From positions 19,501,017 through 19,565,016 of the forward strand of contig OZ038379.1 in NCBI GenBank assembly GCA_964036045.1: 64,000 bases of DNA. Direction: 5' to 3'. The notes beneath the pieces are model-generated. The model did no database searches. It saw nothing but the letters and a program-made list of their open reading frames with translations, and was not told the DNA's origin. The translations under genes and the position numbers were made by a program. Numbering within the stretch: the stretch's first letter is position 1; each line of letters begins with the position of its first letter. The stretch comes from Eutreptiella sp. 'Long Island Sound 2002'. Lineage: Eukaryota; Euglenozoa; Euglenophyceae; Eutreptiales; Eutreptiaceae. This document shows positions 5,971 to 54,329 of the stretch, piece after piece.

Positions 5971-6230
5971 TCAGCCTATGTAGATTGCTCTCTGAAGCTG
6001 GCAGCACCTATTGGCCTCTCGCCACTTACCCTTGTTTAGGGGGGTTTGGCGTGACGCCATAGTAGATTGTTGTCTGAAGCTGGCGGCATCTAGTGGCTTT
6101 TCGCCACTTATCCTTGTCCCTTCCGTGAACCCTTTCCCTTCATCGGTAGTGGTGCCCATTGGCTTCTCACTGCCTTTTGCCCTTGCTCTCCATTAGTGCC
6201 TATCCTTACCTCCCTACAAATCCTTCCTTT
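5971..6230 (+). repeat. Dispersed CTGAAG repeat, two copies
   Basis: Two further copies of the repeat seen at 2,573 and 4,445, starting near 5,985 and 6,068. A C-run begins at 6,272. Confidence 0.55.
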
Positions 6231-6286
6231 CCCATGGGAGGGCGACTCCTCGGCTCTGGACGCCAACTACCCCCCCCCCCCCCCCA

Positions 6287-6694
6287 CTAACCGTTGCCCA
6301 ACCACTGTGACAGCCACAAGCAAATGAGGGGTTTCACGGCACGCTCATTCATGTCAAGAGATGTTTTGTGAGGGATTGTGCCATCTACAATATCTACACA
6401 ATGCTGCACAAGGCACAATTCTGCTCTTTGGCAGACGTGGTGTTGACAGCTTTTCTTGACCAATTGATCCCCAGAATTCAGGGCATGGGATCTATTGGGT
6501 AGACCTGACAAAAGGTACACATTACGGTCCAGAAAAATATACGAGCGGTCTTCAACCTTAATCAACCTTAGCTTGGTGGTCTTCAACCTTAGCTCCTGCT
6601 TGTAAAAATTACTAGAAACTGACATCCACAATTGCAACAACTGGAGTGCCATTAGGAAGTGCATGTTCTTTGCAGATTCCCATGAAATGTTCAT
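6287..6694 (-). CDS. Open frame, possible decayed mobile-element fragment
   Basis: A 135-codon minus-strand frame, more AT-rich than its surroundings. It carries a direct duplication of AAGGTTGAAGACC inside the frame. The N-terminus (MNISWESAKNMHFLMAL) loosely recalls a SANT/Myb-like first helix, but this is not a safe assignment. No splice sites or partner exons are clear, and it could be non-coding. Confidence 0.25.
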   Translation of the reverse strand: MNISWESAKNMHFLMALQLLQLWMSVSSNFYKQELRLKTTKLRLIKVEDRSYIFLDRNVYLLSGLPNRSHALNSGDQLVKKSCQHHVCQRAELCLVQHCVDIVDGTIPHKTSLDMNERAVKPLICLWLSQWLGNG

Positions 6695-20962: not shown

Positions 20963-22453
20963 CTACGCCGTGCCCGTTTCCTCCCGCGCGGTGGTGCCTT
21001 CTGATGCAGCGGCAGGCGGGTGCATCTTGTACACGCCGAAGTGCCGGATGCGCACCGGCGCGGCCGCATCCACCACCTCCGCGCACACCAGCCGCACGCG
21101 GCTGGCGTTCCGCGCGGGCGCCGCATCGAAGTAGTCGATGGACTTGTGACCGATGGTGCGGCCGTTGAGCAGCCGCAGGGCCGTCCAGCGGTCGGCCACG
21201 AGCACTTCGACGCGGTAGCGGGCGACGTTCTGGCCCGACGCGACGTCCTCCATCGCCATCGTCGCGTCGAAGTGCCGCGCGCCGTCCGCGAGGTCGATCA
21301 CGCAGTGCCGGGCGAGCGCGGCGCACGCGGCCTCCACGCCGTCGACGGAGGCCAGGGCCGCGGTGAACGACCGCCGGATGGCGTCCCCGACGGCGCGGGC
21401 CGCGGCCACGTACGGCTCCGGGATGAGCCCGCGGTCGTCCGGTGGGACGTTGGGGATCCAGTTCGCGCCCCGGCCGACGCTGTGCAGGTACCGCCGCCAC
21501 AGCTCCGTGGCGTTAAGGTGGTGCCCGGGCCGCTCGCACGCGCCGCTCCAGAACCACGAGCACCCGGGGCCCGACTGGATCGAGAAGTCCGCCTCCTGCG
21601 GCGCGAACACCGCGTAGCCCCCGGCCGCCGGGCGCGTCGCGTTGCACTCGTACCCGCAGAGGCGGTTGTGGGAGGCGGCGCCGCAGCGGTCGTCGTTGTA
21701 GGCCCACAGGCCGTCGAGGCCGTACGCGGACCCGCTCAGGTCGCAGACCCCGCTCTCCGCCGGGTAACAGAGGCAGCCGTCCGGCCCCGGCAGCACCATC
21801 GCCGCGGCGTTCAGCGCGCGGATGTGCTGCACAACGGCGCCCCAGGGGAATGGGGTGAGGCCCGGGGGGCAGGCCCCGCGGGAGCACTGGGGGTTCGGGT
21901 ACACGTCCATCCAAATGCGGTCGATGGGACCGTAGCGCGTCATGAGCTCCGAGAGCATCCCGAGCTGCTGGCGGAGGTAGTCCGCGGGCGGGCGCGTCCA
22001 CGCGGCGCAGTCCAGGCTCGGGGCGATGTAGAAGCACGGGCTCACGCCGTGCCGGCGGCAGCTGGCGACGAACTCCCCGGCGATGTCGCGGCCCGTCCGG
22101 CCGAACGGGGACGCCGCGACGCCGTAGGTCGAGTAGCGGCTGGGCCACAGCACGAAGCCTTCGGCGTGGTGGGCCGTGAGGCAGAGCTGGCGGGCGCCGA
22201 GGCTGACGGCCGTCCGGACCCATTGGTCCGTGTCGAGGAGGCGGGGGTTGAAAGCGGAGGCCGGGAAGGCGACGCGGGAGTCGCCGTTGCAGCCCCGCGG
22301 AGTGTCACAGTCGCGAAAGGTGCAGATGCCGAAGTGGAGGAACATCGTGACCTCTAAGTCCATGTACCTGAGCTGACTGGCCGAAGGCAGCGGGCGGTCG
22401 GCGAGGGACAGCGCGAGCCCAGCGAGCCATAGCAATGCTACCGACAAAGACAT
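20963..22453 (-). CDS. Secreted alpha-L-fucosidase, family GH29
   Basis: The enzyme should remove terminal alpha-L-fucose from glycans outside the cell or in the endomembrane system. The 496-residue product starts with a signal peptide (MSLSVALLWLAGLALS). GH29 hallmarks follow: FLHFGICTF near residue 35, LTAHHAEGFVLW near 90, and GPIDRIWMDVY near 180, whose Asp is the expected nucleophile. A C-terminal beta-type domain ends with IRHFGVYKM. ATG 22,453 was chosen because a perfect acceptor, CCTTTTTCTCTGCAG, abuts it; the in-frame sequence upstream is therefore intronic. Stop is TAG. The gene has no other intron and is far more GC-rich than its neighbours, which produces a 445-codon antisense shadow frame. 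Length fits the family. Confidence 0.93.
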   Translation of the reverse strand: MSLSVALLWLAGLALSLADRPLPSASQLRYMDLEVTMFLHFGICTFRDCDTPRGCNGDSRVAFPASAFNPRLLDTDQWVRTAVSLGARQLCLTAHHAEGFVLWPSRYSTYGVAASPFGRTGRDIAGEFVASCRRHGVSPCFYIAPSLDCAAWTRPPADYLRQQLGMLSELMTRYGPIDRIWMDVYPNPQCSRGACPPGLTPFPWGAVVQHIRALNAAAMVLPGPDGCLCYPAESGVCDLSGSAYGLDGLWAYNDDRCGAASHNRLCGYECNATRPAAGGYAVFAPQEADFSIQSGPGCSWFWSGACERPGHHLNATELWRRYLHSVGRGANWIPNVPPDDRGLIPEPYVAAARAVGDAIRRSFTAALASVDGVEAACAALARHCVIDLADGARHFDATMAMEDVASGQNVARYRVEVLVADRWTALRLLNGRTIGHKSIDYFDAAPARNASRVRLVCAEVVDAAAPVRIRHFGVYKMHPPAAASEGTTAREETGTA

Positions 22454-22475
22454 CTGCAGAGAAAAAGGAGTGGGG
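22454..22475 (-). other. Intron 3' end before the fucosidase start
   Basis: On the minus strand the pyrimidine tract CTCCTTTTTCTCTGCAG runs directly into the ATG. This implies an intron in the 5' untranslated region and shows the fucosidase gene is spliced like a resident eukaryotic gene. The matching donor was not found. Confidence 0.6.
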
Positions 22476-22778
22476 GCTCTCGGGCTGATAGAGCGGCGGC
22501 ACACCAGCTAGTGAGCTGTGGCTCTGTGTGTCAGGGCCATGGGGCTGTATCATGCACATTGTCGACTGGACAGGCAAATGCAACTATGAGACACGTGGGT
22601 GACTCTTTGGGAAGAAGAACTGTGGGTGTGATGTGTGCACAATGGCACTAATCCCCAAAAAAGGTACCAAGGGGGGACAGATCTTGGCAAACCGCGAAGT
22701 AAGGCCAGGGGATAAATTTTGGGGGGTATAAATTTTGGGTGGGGAGATGCTGCATGTTCTTTTTCTCCTGTCATTCAG

Positions 22779-30836: not shown

Positions 30837-31410
30837 TATTGTTTTAATCGGTTCATCCATTATGCAGGTCTGCACCTGCCAGAGTCACGCACCAAAGACA
30901 GCAACAAGGTGACTCTGGTGGACTACAGGTAACAGAGGTACTCCAGAGGGATGCATGGCACTTAAGAGTGGTGAAGCGTGCCAGAGGATGTCACAGCTGC
31001 CAGCGTGTAAGGGGAACAAGATGGGGCCACATGAAGATCACACAACTCTTCCAGTTGGTGCAGCAATGTCATTCTGTGCGAAACAACAAGCATGGCCTAA
31101 TGCGGGCTGTGTGCAGGACCGATCAATGGACGACTGCATAGCAAAGAGCCCCCTCTCTCAAAGATCCGAATGCAGTCGTCGTCGTTGGCAGATGTCAATG
31201 AGCCGATTGCCAGTCAGGAAATGCTATCCTCCACTCCCCAAACATATGCACGCACGCACGCGTGCGCGCACGCGCGTTCAAATGGGCTATAAACAGAGCC
31301 ACACACACCACCGTCAATAGTTCGCCCCCATCCCAATGGGTAACTATGACATGGAGCGACAAGCGCCAAACACCAAGCAACACAAAAGAAGGAATACTGG
31401 CCCGCTTGAC

Positions 31411-31675
31411 CTGCCTTCTCTTCCGACGGTCGCACATGCACCGCTCGCAGCATCTCTTGCTCCCTGCGAAGGTTCTCTGCCTCGTAGCGTGCACGCTCGG
31501 TCGCATCCGTCAGCGCTGCGGAGGCCTGTTGAGCGCGCTTGAAGAGCTCTGTCGTGTCAACATGGCGGTTCTTATCAGGATGCAACTCCAGCGCCTGCCT
31601 GCGAAATGCTCTGCGGACGTCCTCTGGGGTGGCAACGCGGGTAACGCCCAAAAGCTCATAATAGTTGAGCTCCAT
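31411..31675 (-). CDS. J-domain (DnaJ/Hsp40) protein, first coding exon
   Basis: J-domain proteins stimulate Hsp70 ATPase and deliver substrates. From ATG 31,675 the exon encodes a complete J-domain at the extreme N-terminus: NYYELLGV (helix I), VRRAFRRQALELHPDKN with the invariant HPD, and FKRAQQASAALTDATERARY (helices III-IV). An acceptor with a (CT)n tract ends about 49 nt upstream of the ATG, so the start lies in the second exon. A donor (GGCAG|GTCAAG) follows after 88 codons, in phase 1. The remaining exons were not recognised downstream, so the subfamily is unknown. Confidence 0.85.
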
Positions 31676-31706
31676 AGTCTCGCCAGGCGAGACAACGCAA
31701 GGCTGC

Positions 31707-31732
31707 AATAGAGAGAGAGAGAGAGAGAGGGG
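31707..31732 (+). repeat. (GA)n microsatellite
   Basis: Thirteen or so GA units. On the minus strand this is the CT-rich tract just before the acceptor of the J-domain exon. Confidence 0.9.
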
Positions 31733-31739
31733 GGAGGAG

Positions 31740-32770
31740 GGAGGGAGGGAGAGAGGAACAGGGAACGACGTACAACAGGGAGAGCCACCGCGTTGCATGT
31801 GTTTGTGTCTTGAGTCTTGACTCAAAGGACTGTTTCCTTGCGTTCTAAGCCACGTGAGGATATACAGGGGTCACAAACCCCCACCTCCTCCTCCCTAACA
31901 ACCAGCAATGTTCTTCCACTTGACAGGGGCGGGCCATGACGTCAGGTTTTGCATGATCCTGACCTCATGCCAGACTTCCTCAGTACGATCGTAATCCGCC
32001 GTTCTGCATTCATCCGGGGGGGGGGGAGGGGCATGAAGGAAAGTGGGGAGGCAGGAGGGGGATAACTCGAGTGGCTGGGAGGGATGTTCCTTGGACAGGA
32101 CTGTAGACAAAGCTTAGCCCCGAAAACCTTCCAGGCCCCTGTCTGATGACCATCAAATGGACTCCCTATCATCTCGTTGCTGCTTGCCCTTGGCAGTGGA
32201 CCTATAGCCACAGCCTGCAATATTCCGTGTTTTCCCCGCAAATTCCATTTAGAGATCCCGTCACGTGTGGCCCCGGGAGATAGACATTTTCAGACTGGGG
32301 TTGGTGGGGTGGGGGGAGGGAGCACCGGGGCGCACTACTTTTCAGCAAGTGTCCTAGAGCTTAGTCCCAGATCTCCCCTATAGAAGCTCCGAAGCACACC
32401 AGAAAATCCCACCAAATCTGCCCATCAAAATGTGACATTTATTCTGCTCAACAACCAGTTTTGTCTCCACAGATTTTGTAATAATTGCAAGGGGACACAA
32501 ATGCAATGTATAATGCCTCTCATGTAACGGCACCTTGCAAGGTCCAGGGCATGGGACTGGACCAATTTACTGGGTTATTGGTAAAAGTATATGATAGTGG
32601 TGTAGCGGATTCTACACATAGACAAGCACCCCATGACCCACATGGCACCAAACCCCATATCCCATCATGTGGGGGCTGAGGGATTACATAAACATGGTGC
32701 AGCAACTAGGGGTGTGTGTCTCCCTGTGGCTACAAGAGCGTGCCTGGCTAGCTGTGGGACCAGGGGCAAG
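31740..32770. other. Spacer upstream of the J-domain gene
   Basis: G-runs at 31,730-31,750 and 32,014-32,030. No gene seen. Confidence 0.5.
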
Positions 32771-43299: not shown

Positions 43300-43800
43300 C
43301 ATTCAGATATGCCCCAAAACCATTCAGGTATGCCCCAGACCCATTTGGGTACGTCCTACATCCTTTCGGGTATGCCCTAGACCCAGTCCAGTATGCCATA
43401 GACCCATTGGGGTATGCCCTAAACCTATTCGGGTATGCCCTAGACCCAGTTGGATATGCCATGCCATCCCTGAATTGGTCTAGGGCCCATTCAGATATGG
43501 CCTGTACCCATTCGGGTATGCTCTAGACCCATTTGGGTATGCCCTAGACCCATTGGGGTATGCCCTAGACCCATTTGGATATGCCCTAGACCCGTTCGGG
43601 TATGCCGTACACCCATTCGGGTATGACTAGGGCATACCCCAATGGGTCTAGGGTGTATCCAAGCGCATCTAGGAGTCTATGGCATACCCGACTAGGTCTA
43701 CAGCACATCCAAATGGGTTTACGGAATACCCCGATTGGTCTCGAGCATACTTGAATGGGTGTAGGGCATAGTCGAATAGGTCTAGGGCATACCCGAATGC
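43300..43800. repeat. 22-bp minisatellite with a central orientation switch
   Basis: From 43,300 to about 43,626 the unit CCATTCGGGTATGCCCTAGA is repeated head-to-tail some 15 times. From about 43,627 to 43,800 the complementary unit GGGCATACCCCAATGGGTCT continues, so the array is a long imperfect palindrome. Two stray units occur at 48,706-48,750. Confidence 0.9.
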
Positions 43801-43863
43801 ACGGGGTGGGCGTTGAACATTTTTTGGGACCGCTGCTTTTTGTGCTCCTGAGCGGAGGTTTTT

Positions 43864-43884
43864 CTTAGACGGCCCAAGTTGCCC
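43864..43884 (+). repeat. Left terminal inverted repeat
   Basis: Starts CTTAGACGGCCCAAG and is followed by a C-run. It matches the right end perfectly over 21 bp in inverse orientation. Confidence 0.85.
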
Positions 43885-44219
43885 CCCCCCCCCCCCCCCC
43901 CAAATGGACCCCATGTCACCAAATGACGGTCATCAAAAACGCGTTCTACAGGGGTGAAATTTTAGGAACAAGCAGCGCACGTCTATTTCCGCTCGTTTTT
44001 GACTACCCCCATATATGTTTTTGGCACTTTGCGCACAACACCAACTTGAGGCTGGGCCCTGTGAAATATGGGAAAAATAGTCAAATTCTGAGGAGGAACC
44101 CCACGGAATGCATGTGTGTCTATGCACGCTTCAATATCACTACACCAGCGGAGGCACTACTCGTCGACGCGTACCATGTTACTCAAATTTTGTTCTGCAG
44201 ACAGTGAAATACTGAAGTT

Positions 44220-44296
44220 TGTCTGGAAACAGACAGATCTTACCAAAACCTGCTGCACAGGGACAGTAATCGCAAAAAGTTGTCTGGTTCCAGACA
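44220..44296. promoter_or_regulatory. Palindrome pair 1
   Basis: TGTCTGGAAACAGACA at 44,220-44,235 and the perfect palindrome TGTCTGGTTCCAGACA at 44,281-44,296, start-to-start 61 bp. It lies between the left terminal repeat and the 3' end of the coding part. Confidence 0.8.
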
Positions 44297-44498
44297 CAAG
44301 ACGAGTAACCTAGTGAAAAATTATTGTATTCCACAAAAGGAACTCTGGTCCGCAACCAAATGTCATAAAAAAGTCACAAAGGACTGTCAGTCGCGTGTTG
44401 GTGAAGGGAAAATCGTCAAAATGGACCACTGGGACCCAGAGAGCAGACTGGCACGCCAACAGGGTGCCACAGTGATTACATGTTACGAATAGATAATG

Positions 44499-44516
44499 TG
44501 GTCACTGAGCAGGTTT
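44499..44516 (-). repeat. Inner 18-bp inverted repeat, left copy
   Basis: On the minus strand it reads AAACCTGCTCAGTGACCA, identical to 46,899-46,916 on the plus strand. It overlaps a TAA (44,517-44,515) that closes the frame extending past the TAG of exon C. Confidence 0.85.
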
Positions 44517-44709
44517 ACAACAACAGTGTGCAACCAACAGCAACTGCAATAATGCAGGTTTCGTTCTTCTTGGAGCCATTGAATCGGTCCTTCCATGCCT
44601 GAAACCCAATCTTGGCCTTCTTGGAAGCAGACGACTGAGAATCGGTTCCCGCAGCTGCAGGCTCATCAGAAGGTGATGCCTGTGCTTTTTTGTTGCCTTT
44701 GCCTTTTGT

Positions 44710-45216
44710 CTAGGATGAGGAGGCTTTGTTCTCGTCTCCCTTGCGTGTGCGACCACCTTTTTTGCCAGGGCTCCGTGCCTGCTTCGGTGTACAATACACA
44801 GCATTGTCTGGGGTGGCGCCGACGGCTTCCACTTCATCTTCAGACTCCTGCCCTCTCTCTGCCTTCTCAGGCACACAGCTGCAGTCCACAGGGCAACCCT
44901 CCGCGAAATTTTCAAACACTGCATTCCAGGGAATAGGGCTCAGCCCATCAGCGATGCGTAAATTGCTGCATACGAGGGCACCAACGTCTGCAATAGACTC
45001 CTGCTCCGTGGGCAAACCCAACACCACACTGATGGGTACCGGCATGCGCACTGCCAGACTGCAAGCCAGCTGTACAGAACCACTGATAGCCAAGAACCAC
45101 AAGGTAGTTGCTTCTGAGGGTACTGCATCTGCCAGGTGGTGCATGACAAACCCAACAACCTCCGTACACAGCTGGTTCACCATCGGACCACGAGAAAAGG
45201 CAAAGTAGCGAGGCAC
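44710..45216 (-). CDS. Element protein, exon C
   Basis: Acceptor GTTCCCTTATACAG opens exon C in phase 0, as exon B requires. It encodes VPRYFAFSRGPMVNQLCTEV, a Cys/acidic middle (CPVDCSCVPEKAERGQE, ESEDEVEAVGATPD) and a basic tail (SPGKKGGRTRKGDENKA). It stops at TAG 44,710, but the same frame stays open and coding-like (GFQAWKDRFNGSKKNE) to TAA at 44,515. That TAG may be a recent C-to-T change in a CAG codon. Composition suggests a disordered, charged C-terminal tail. No homologue recognised. Confidence 0.6.
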   Translation of the reverse strand: MPRYFAFSRGPMVNQLCTEVVGFVMHHLADAVPSEATTLWFLAISGSVQLACSLAVRMPVPISVVLGLPTEQESIADVGALVCSNLRIADGLSPIPWNAVFENFAEGCPVDCSCVPEKAERGQESEDEVEAVGATPDNAVYCTPKQARSPGKKGGRTRKGDENKASSS

Positions 45217-45425
45217 CTGTATAAGGGAACAGTGAGTCTGACACCCCTACTGGTGCAGCTGGACTGGCCGATGTCGTCTAGTTCCAGACACTTTCCCACA
45301 ATTCACCCTTCTCAGGACGCATTCTGCGTTATAAGTGTCTGGATCCAGACAAACTTTAGGATTTAACGGTGCACACAACGTGACTGTGGTAGCATGCAGC
45401 AGGTAGCAGGAGCTGACAGTAATAC
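45217..45425 (-). other. Intron of the element gene holding palindrome pair 2
   Basis: A 209-nt phase-0 intron (AAG|GTATTA to TTATACAG|GTG). The palindrome pair at 45,275-45,351 lies inside it, as other pairs lie only in untranslated parts. Confidence 0.6.
45275..45351. promoter_or_regulatory. Palindrome pair 2
   Basis: Diverged CGTCTAGTTCCAGACA at 45,275-45,290 and perfect TGTCTGGATCCAGACA at 45,336-45,351; start-to-start 61 bp. The spacer contains AATTCACCC, related to the AATTTCACC box near other pairs. Confidence 0.8.
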
Positions 45426-45983
45426 CTTCTTGGGTAGCGGATTTTTGGAAACGACCCACAGCTCAGTGAATCCCATCGAGTATTGCTGTGTGAGAGATCC
45501 CACAATAAAGCAAGCCACGCGAATTGTTGTCAACCCCTCGTTGTCGTGCAACTTTCGGAGACCATCCAACACTCCCAAGACGTCACAAGCCTCGCCAACA
45601 ATGAGAACAAGCGGCCCAGACACCAAATTGCGACTGACAACGGAATGGATGCCTTCCATATGTCCCTTTGGAACTTCAACAATGATCAGGCAATACGGCA
45701 TGTTGGCCACCGTAGAGTGCAGCGGAGTACCAGATGCCATCCCAGTGATATGCATGACCCCATCCAGGGACTTGCTGTCAGTCACCCCCGCCTCTGGGGC
45801 CTCAGACCCAATGTTCACGGTGATGAAGTTGACATCAGCAGCAATCTTGATCTCAGGGTTCACAAGGGGACGTTTAAGGGCATCACGGAGGGGAGCATAC
45901 GTGGGGTCACTCCAGATTGCAGCAGTTACGACATACTTCCAGGGGGGCCAGCAGTTCTGCTCAGACCACTTCCAAGTGTACGT
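45426..45983 (-). CDS. Element protein, exon B
   Basis: About 186 codons from a probable acceptor (GTCACCTTCAAG, 45,984) to donor CCCAAGAAG|GTATTA. It starts TYTWKWSEQNCWPPWKYVV and later has LVSGPLVLIVGEACDVLGVL and FTELWVVSKNPLPKK, an alternating beta/alpha pattern as in a Rossmann- or RNase H-like fold. No named motif can be assigned safely. The intron to exon A would be about 190 nt (45,984-46,173) using donor ACA|GTACAT. If that intron is not used, exon A simply ends at 46,060 and B is a separate frame. Confidence 0.55.
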
Positions 45984-46059
45984 CTTGAAGGTGACATGGC
46001 TCTTCGACAATAGACACTATTCACAATGGGCCCGTTCTGCAAGCGTTTTGCGACTGGGG

Positions 46060-46848
46060 TCAACCAAGTCGTTGTCCGGGTGGCAGAGATGATGTCCCCA
46101 CAGACGTGCAGCCTTCAGTTGCTTTGCCTTCTTTGTAATCATTGGCAGTGACACATTGCTGGAGCCCATGTACTGTGTAACCTCGCCTCAAAGCGTCCAC
46201 CGCTCGTGGGAACTCCCGGAAACTGGCTACTATGGTCTGTGCTGTTTGCGGGATGCGTTGGAGAAGATCGTCAAGTGTAGGGAAACCCGGGTACATAGCA
46301 ATCGCAGTTGTATGCAACACTGACATGGCAGTGATGTTTAGACAGCAATCAGGTCGTACCGGGTCACTGCAGTACCGTCTGCGATACCAGTTGTCAAACT
46401 GCACCACCACCTGCTTCCCTGCCATTGATTTCCAAATGGCGTTTGTTCTGGCATGTGCCTGTTGCCCCAAAGGCGGTAACCGGCCCGCAGCAAAACCTGC
46501 ATGTGACAATTGTCTCCGCATCCCCCTGGATGCACTTATCAGTGAGCCAACAGCCTTTTCCTCTGGCAGAGCCATCTTCCTACACAGTTGCATCATCGTG
46601 TACACCTGGCGTGCAAACACTCCATACCACCTTGGCCAAGGTGATTGCCCATGAGCTTTAGTCAACGTTGCCATACTGCGTTTGGTTCGCCGGTTGACCC
46701 TCATCTGTGCGCAGAACTCCACAAGCAGGGCTGCACCTGGTTCCTCATTGCGTAAAGCGGCATCCATAAGCTCCAGCAGTGTACCATACTTCGCTCCGCG
46801 TAAGAAGTCACGCAAGAGACGAAAGGGATCTGTTGCAGCACGGCTCAT
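46060..46848 (-). CDS. Element protein, exon A (candidate transposase core)
   Basis: From ATG 46,848 (the frame is open further upstream to an acceptor-like TTTTGTTTAG) the product has LLRDFLRGAKYGTLLELMD, a basic region (MRVNRRTKRSMATLTKAHG) and AGKQVVVQFDNWYRRRYCSD followed by CCLNITAMSVLHTTAIAM. A beta-strand ending in Asp followed by Asn is how DDE transposases often present a catalytic Asp, so this is a candidate catalytic segment; inference only. It is the first coding exon of the element, next to palindrome pairs 3 and 4. Either it ends at TGA 46,060 or splices near 46,174 to exon B. Confidence 0.55.
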   Translation of the reverse strand: MSRAATDPFRLLRDFLRGAKYGTLLELMDAALRNEEPGAALLVEFCAQMRVNRRTKRSMATLTKAHGQSPWPRWYGVFARQVYTMMQLCRKMALPEEKAVGSLISASRGMRRQLSHAGFAAGRLPPLGQQAHARTNAIWKSMAGKQVVVQFDNWYRRRYCSDPVRPDCCLNITAMSVLHTTAIAMYPGFPTLDDLLQRIPQTAQTIVASFREFPRAVDALRRGYTVHGLQQCVTANDYKEGKATEGCTSVGTSSLPPGQRLG

Positions 46849-46898
46849 CAACGGTGGAACAGAACCAGACTAAACAAAACGGTGAACAACAACGAAAC

Positions 46899-46916
46899 AA
46901 ACCTGCTCAGTGACCA
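46899..46916 (+). repeat. Inner 18-bp inverted repeat, right copy
   Basis: AAACCTGCTCAGTGACCA, about 50 bp upstream of the first ATG of the element gene; inverse copy at 44,499-44,516. Confidence 0.85.
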
Positions 46917-46932
46917 GACAATTGGTGGAGAG

Positions 46933-47008
46933 TGTCTGGAACCAGACACCGTTCAATAAAATGTGTATCTTAATCACGGAATTTCACCAAAATGTCTGGA
47001 ACCAGACA
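46933..47008. promoter_or_regulatory. Palindrome pair 3
   Basis: Perfect TGTCTGGAACCAGACA at 46,933-46,948 again at 46,993-47,008; spacing 60 bp. AATTTCACC lies in the spacer at 46,980. It is upstream of exon A. Confidence 0.85.
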
Positions 47009-47104
47009 CATTCTCCATATTATTGGGGTGTACAGAAGACGTTTGACACTTGCAACAGACACCCGGTGACCCCCCCCCCCTGAAAGGGTGTAAATTGTTT
47101 AGTT

Positions 47105-47182
47105 TGTCTGGAACCAGATACTGCGACCTCAAAAACTGGGTTTCACAGGGGTGGAATTTGAAAGAGTGTATGGTTCTAGACA
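47105..47182. promoter_or_regulatory. Palindrome pair 4
   Basis: TGTCTGGAACCAGATA at 47,105-47,120 and diverged TGTATGGTTCTAGACA at 47,167-47,182; spacing 62 bp. The spacer holds CACAGGGGTGGAATTT. Confidence 0.75.
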
Positions 47183-47436
47183 CTTTTCGAAATTCCAAGA
47201 GAAGGGTACATAGGTGGACAAAGACAACACAGCACAAAGCAAAACTTGTTCACTGAAGCGTAAAAATTGACCATGCGCAGTCACCTGGGTTTGTGTGCGT
47301 GGATATGAGAACCACAAAAACTGGCTGTCAAGCAGTCAAATTCAGGTACGCGTCTGAATGACTAAAAAACAGGCTATGAAATTTCCCACCGGCCGAAATG
47401 GCCCTTTTTGGGTGTTTTGGGCCGATTTACCGGGGT

Positions 47437-47457
47437 GGGCAACTTGGGCCGTCTAAG
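47437..47457 (-). repeat. Right terminal inverted repeat
   Basis: Inverse complement of 43,864-43,884 over 21 bp, followed outside by TTTTTGTGCC. Confidence 0.85.
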
Positions 47458-47469
47458 TTTTTGTGCCGC

Positions 47470-53481: not shown

Positions 53482-53634
53482 CTGCACGTTGAGGCAGGGT
53501 GTTGCAAGGGTGGGCGCCACAGACGGGGAACACGGCATCGAAGAGCCCGTTTGGCTTGTCCGGAAAAAGAGCTAGAACTGTCGCCTCAGAAAGGAGGGGG
53601 GGCGGGCACAGAGTCACTTTCCGAAGATCCCAAA

Positions 53635-53827
53635 GGGTGAGCCACACCTGCCGGTAGTGCAATAGCAGGGCGACTCGTGTCATGAGACTCAGCAAGCTGA
53701 GGGGGACCCCATGACCCCGGTTACAAATTAGTTTAACTTCTTTATCCAGCAGTGCTGGATATATCAGAAATTAAGCTGACAAGAACAGATACTACACTTG
53801 ATCTTAGCCAAAAGGCCGAGAAGGTAT
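53635..53827 (-). ncRNA. U2 spliceosomal snRNA
   Basis: U2 pairs with the intron branch site. The minus strand begins ATACCTTCTCGGCC, as in plant U2, and keeps CCTTTTGGCTAAGATCAAG and the branch-pairing GTAGTA (53,795-53,790). Stem-loop IIa is TGTCAGCTTAATTTCTGATA, IIb TATCCAGCACTGCTGGATA, and stem IV GCCCTGCTATTGCACTACC closing with GGCAGG; the 3' end is near ACCC (53,635). Length about 193 nt. The Sm site reads AATTTGT rather than the usual ATTTTTG. Ends are set by alignment from memory to the conserved structure. Confidence 0.95.
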
Positions 53828-54246: not shown

Positions 54247-54249
54247 ATA

Positions 54250-54321
54250 AGGTCCTACCCGGATTCGAACCGGGGTTACAGGAATCAGGATCCTGGGTGC
54301 TAACCACTACACTATAGAACC
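54250..54321 (-). tRNA. tRNA-Gln, anticodon CTG, with C33
   Basis: A 72-nt cloverleaf on the minus strand. Acceptor GGTTCTA pairs with TAGGACC, discriminator T. D arm GTGTAGTGGTTAGCAC, anticodon stem CAGGA/TCCTG, loop TCCTGAT (anticodon CTG), T arm CCCGG-TTCGAAT-CCGGG. The body matches eukaryotic tRNA-Gln closely, most like plant copies. Unusual: position 33, before the anticodon, is C instead of the near-universal U. No intron. CCA is not encoded. Confidence 0.92.
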
Positions 54322-54329
54322 TCGGCGAC

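Follow-up and report, generated by a model that had tools for sequence, protein, structure and literature searches.

Among eukaryotic DDE transposons, about 20 superfamilies are recognized (PMC9587614, partial text). Target-site duplications of the P element measure 8 bp (PMC7776569, partial text), and those of the KDZ elements (Kyakuja, Dileera, Zisupton) 7-8 bp; the CMCT group (EnSpm, Mirage, Chapaev, Transib, Plavaka) is defined by C(2)C and H(3-4)H motifs, mostly has CA..TG termini and makes duplications of 2-5 bp (PMC12730594, partial text). In hAT elements 8 bp is usual, with hAT5, where 5-bp duplications are on record (PMC12730594, partial text), as a further case. We consider here an element at positions 43864-47457 of a 64,000-nucleotide stretch of Eutreptiella sp. 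'Long Island Sound 2002' (GCA_964036045.1, contig OZ038379.1, positions 19,501,017 to 19,565,016, that is C2:19501017-19565016), hereafter the window, in which positions are counted from the first nucleotide. Taken as a whole, the evidence is best explained, with high confidence, if this element is an internally deleted, non-autonomous copy of a two-gene cut-and-paste DNA transposon encoding a DDE transposase.

As the initial annotation had reported, the ends of the element pair perfectly over 21 bp, the left terminal inverted repeat (43864-43884, plus strand) with the right one (47437-47457, minus strand), and the first mismatch comes at base 22. End comparison and a repeat search both recover the pair, which the latter scores as 26 nt at 96%. 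The suspected target duplication TTTTT stands on both sides, at 43859-43863 and 47458-47462. Immediately inside the left repeat there is a run of C (43885-43901), the length of which varies among copies.

Searched against its own genome (for all such searches, an assembly of 2.28 Gb in 2205 contigs), the element gave at least 43 DNA matches at no fewer than 40 distinct places, window counted (best 40 of 372 candidates), and its right part alone at least 41 matches at 40 or 41 places (best 40 of 180 candidates). Left and right parts are thus each found at 40 places or more. In 20 further left ends, the difference from the 21-bp repeat of the window is 0-2 bases in 18 and 3-4 in the other 2. It is likewise the case that all 12 transposase loci fetched from a protein search carry the inverted end upstream of the gene, with 0-2 mismatches. 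An inner, perfect 18-bp inverted repeat had also been noticed (44499-44516, plus strand, and 46899-46916, minus strand), and it too recurs: with up to 3 mismatches allowed, the left arm is present in 19 of 20 other copies scanned, and the right arm in all 3 left-arm-bearing copies whose right part fell in scanned sequence. Over the left 2.3 kb, copies differ by 8.5% on average (range 0.6-12.8%, 21 rows), so that a recent insertion can be set aside for most of them.

Both ends were read in 16 copies: the window, 3 others, and 12 chosen for their presence in both end lists at a plausible distance. After exclusion of C5:72556354, the left end of which is unrecognizable at the place read, 15 copies remain. 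Exact 5-bp duplications flank 12 of these (ttttt, aacaa, tgctt, tagtg, ataaa, ccaat, tgttg, tgcca, tccaa, attgt, ttgta, gcttt); in one further copy 4 of 5 bases agree, and two have none (3/5, 0/5). Duplications of 5 bp, rich in T, had been anticipated; their length is borne out, and a fixed target word is not seen among them. The idea that inverted repeats happen to flank the exons of an ordinary host gene has therefore become negligible: it is refuted by the ends shared among many copies and by their matched duplications, and in the window copy both genes are broken. L019 and L022, 0.6% apart and identical over the 40 flanking bases printed, are a single duplicated locus rather than two insertions. 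L061/L062 and L064/L068, two pairs among the 12 transposase loci, have identical 12 printed flanking bases at different places, and all three pairs probably represent duplicated host loci, not separate insertions.

The initial annotation took the element for a complete one whose three exons would form a single spliced gene. This view did not survive comparison with longer copies, of 7301, 7208 and 6955 bp, which carry two genes and rule out a complete single-gene element. Gene 1, encoding the transposase, reads from the right end, is intronless and has 712 codons, with one stop in the 6955-bp copy; gene 2 follows it downstream and shares its strand. By comparison, the window element has 3594 bp and lacks about 3.35 kb relative to the 6955-bp copy. 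Alignments with that copy end at element positions 2299-2328 and restart at 2316-2319, placing the deletion junction at about window positions 46179-46187. Consistently, most of the 20 copies fetched first align with the window element over its initial 2.32 kb, then enter DNA that the latter lacks. To the right of the junction, what had been read as the first exon is the start of gene 1 (about 220 codons, 46185-46848, minus strand), the entire frame being present in other copies; to the left are remnants of the end of gene 2, which the deletion has joined to it. These comprise exon 3 without its first part (45426-46184, minus; the exon start is visible in longer copies), with an in-frame TAG at 46017-46019, a phase-0 GT..AG intron (45217-45425, minus) and the last exon, exon 4 (44515-45216, minus), broken by a TAG at 44710-44712. 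The left arm of the inner inverted repeat sits at the end of gene 2 and the right arm upstream of gene 1. Because its middle is lost, gene 1 is reduced to some 220 codons and the gene 2 remnants hold stops, the window copy is non-autonomous. In a genome-wide protein search with at least 68 matches (best 63 of 7748 candidates), each of the 18 frames that run from residue 1 to 711-712 contains at least one stop.

The alignment of gene 1 products displays the three acidic positions of a DDE enzyme: D155 in 21 of 21 rows, D289 in 24 of 24 and E495 in all 9 rows with a letter. The aspartate of VVVQFDNWYRRR, within an open reading frame at 46060-46869 on the minus strand, had been proposed as catalytic; it is invariant (21/21 rows). 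The window fragment keeps this first catalytic Asp and has lost the second Asp and the Glu. The predicted model of the protein has an RNase H-like fold (Foldseek support is weaker, best E 0.025), with a predicted helical insertion where P transposase has its GTP-binding insertion domain. As modelled, the fold is nearest to those of the P element and hAT (Hermes), a comparison in which the lack of a superfamily is no argument against that superfamily.

To which superfamily does such an enzyme belong? Pfam contains models for hAT, BED, THAP and P, and also one for KDZ. Placement was tested with Pfam profiles, signature motifs, duplication length and predicted fold. None of 24 members retrieved a transposase family from Pfam at E <= 10, a threshold at which the HMMER filters still discard most matches above about 0.1; only eight scattered weak families came up. 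The initial annotation was thus right, as far as tested, in recognizing no known family.

The main rival is a very divergent hAT, because hAT5 with its 5-bp duplications exists; more broadly, a hAT5-like or P-like element would keep the mechanism of a known superfamily with an altered signature motif and 5-bp duplications. We hold this to be unlikely. The signature motifs of hAT, P and MuDR are absent from the transposase alignment, where C/DxxH is missing between the second D and the E, the residue three before H325 being Gly in 21 of 23 rows. The same scan of 24 members found no hAT, BED or P match, and no THAP domain, several rows being without an N-terminus that the query P0046 does have. 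Against a P-like origin, furthermore, Drosophila P (the P element/THAP9 group) has 8-bp duplications and 31-bp ends, to be compared with 5 bp and 21 bp here; the present element has in addition a second gene, as it does in comparison with Hermes and hAT5, and no sequence similarity to P/THAP9 was found.

A divergent CMCT member (EnSpm, Transib, Chapaev, Plavaka and kin) would fit a duplication of 5 bp, which falls inside the range of that group. It is nevertheless improbable, since the defining C(2)C and H(3-4)H are absent between the second Asp and the Glu, with only H325 and C488 kept in at least 85% of rows, and the termini are CT..AG instead of CA..TG; Transib/RAG1 differs in the same way. 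Still less probable is a KDZ element. Large size and an accessory gene recall the TET/JBP gene of fungal KDZ (PMC12730594, partial text), but the duplications of that group are longer than the 5 bp seen here, and none of the 24 members has a KDZ match in Pfam.

Relatives were also sought outside eukaryotes. Viral contigs gave 32 pattern matches, and bacteria and archaea (one genome per species) 4, none of them confirmed in either case; when the transposase model was compared by structure with viral proteins, no match reached E <= 0.001 and the top ranks contained no transposase. The literature surveyed, whose scope left aside most subscription papers and Repbase entries, has no description attributable to this family. 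Our preference, held with modest assurance, goes to a lineage that belongs to none of the superfamilies tested, that is, a candidate new superfamily. If this is so, it would be an additional branch situated between groups already known, combining a P- or hAT-like core with 5-bp duplications and having diverged relatives on other contigs. There is nothing unusual in the kind of mechanism; it is the family that the tests run leave unplaced. Gene 1 would encode a DDE transposase that binds ends starting with CTTAGACGGCCCAAGTTGCCC and excises the element with an RNase H-fold active site made of D155, D289 and a Glu within 491-495, of which E495 is the most likely. Insertion would take place at cuts staggered by 5 bp, without a strict target word. 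The window copy would have been mobilized by enzyme produced elsewhere.

An element coupling a DDE transposase to an accessory protein has a precedent in KolobokP, which differs from the present one by its TTAA duplications, its Kolobok C/DxxH, a second gene for a His-Me nuclease and long terminal direct repeats (PMC9587614, partial text). The splice model of gene 2 gives 753 residues, with exons of 507, 183 and 915 nt followed by the last exon, and three phase-0 GT-AG introns. This model, pieced together from the exons of two different copies, is least certain at the second intron's donor, and exon 3 as taken has a stop. Matches are all of close kin (exon 3, 41 at 54-100% identity; exon 1, 29 at 59-99%), all but one on contigs of at least 75 kb, and none among them is a diverged relative outside such elements. 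Pfam gave no match to the gene 2 protein, and NCBIfam, PHROGs and PDB at most weak unrelated ones; a tblastn search of phages yielded one match only, at E 9. The fold model is poor (predicted local distance difference test score 43).

By eye, exon 1 bears some resemblance to a ParB core (..QYWILSGQHIAEA..), and exons 3-4 to the strand order of a permuted methyltransferase. These are leads read from the protein sequence, and Pfam, NCBIfam and PDB contain no sequence match assigning gene 2 to a ParB-like or methyltransferase-like family. Between copies, the gene frame has selection ratios of 0.63 in exon 3 and 0.73 in exon 4, to be read beside those of the other frames (0.87 and 0.87 for exon 3; 0.76 and 0.87 for exon 4) and of an overlapping frame at 5986-6366 which is equally low, at 0.67.

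A second trait of the longer copies is an array of short dyads. Subterminal motif arrays bound by TnpA are typical of En/Spm (CACTA), and the present element is like it in having many copies of one short internal site together with a second element protein. It differs in that the site is a 16-bp dyad, TGTCTGGNNCCAGACA, found in introns and spacers besides the flanks, with a neighbour almost always some 60 bp away. With up to 2 mismatches allowed, the 7301-bp and 7208-bp copies have 19 sites each, whereas 200 single-base shuffles of each longer copy average 0.03 and never exceed 1. Distances between neighbours are 58-62 bp in 10 of 18 cases in the former and 11 of 18 in the latter; four of the remaining ones per copy span exons (994 to 2273 bp), and the others are 109-110, 121, 178 and 225-228 bp. 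As a result, 18 of the 19 dyads in each longer copy have a neighbour 58-62 bp off. The spacers are mostly unrelated, their mean best identity of 0.35 and 0.37 being close to the 0.33 of random pairs, apart from one or two similar pairs per copy with identity up to 0.68 and 0.80. By coordinate comparison no dyad of the 7208-bp copy falls in an exon, and the sites of the other copy occupy the same gaps.

The window element retains 8 dyads in four pairs with a spacing of 60-62 bp. One pair (44220-44235 and 44281-44296) and a second within the gene 2 intron (45275-45290 and 45336-45351) are each 61 bp apart, and two further pairs lie within 46933-47182, at 46933/46993 (60 bp) and 47105/47167 (62 bp). 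Outside the element, the window has 1 match with 2 mismatches and 5 with 3, close to the chance expectation of 4.7 at up to 3 mismatches. In the L010/L030 copy, at element positions of about 2490-2910, and in L020, a multi-dyad stretch is missing, replaced or inverted between copies, which marks a site of recurrent rearrangement within the array.

The case for a function of the dyads rests on their number, spacing and placement. Conservation weighs against it: the arms of four left-part sites are no better conserved than other non-coding DNA (0.889 versus 0.901, with coding DNA at 0.922), and 1527 of 2000 random sets do as well, the duplicate row L022 being omitted from this test. To be sure, free decay of most copies once inserted would lead one to expect this. 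A protein acting as a dimer, encoded by gene 2 or by gene 1, may bind the dyads and so pair the ends or regulate the element. A bolder and doubtful extension would posit a new superfamily of DDE transposons in eukaryotes with a gene 2 protein, perhaps derived from the joining of a ParB-like DNA-binding protein to a decayed DNA methyltransferase, that binds the phased array of about 19 dyads to form a nucleoprotein scaffold pairing the ends, or silencing and marking the element. Phased dyads and a second gene make a testable case of how large transposons may organize their ends or control themselves.

Other features of the window deserve brief mention. Just left of the element, at 43501-43801, a degenerate 21-bp tandem repeat (CCTAGACCCATTTGGGTATGC-like) occurs in both orientations and creates large imperfect inverted repeats. 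On the minus strand, a U2 spliceosomal RNA gene (53632-53827; Rfam, 173.9 bits) has a tRNA-Gln (ctg) gene close by (54249-54322); the presence of U2 is in keeping with a eukaryotic genome. Also on the minus strand, a frame at 31217-31870 has a DnaJ domain (Pfam E 5e-17), and an open frame of 514 amino acids (20966-22507) matches alpha-L-fucosidase (Pfam E 5.5e-20), its top PDB matches being an F5/8 type C domain protein and an alpha-1,3/4-fucosidase.

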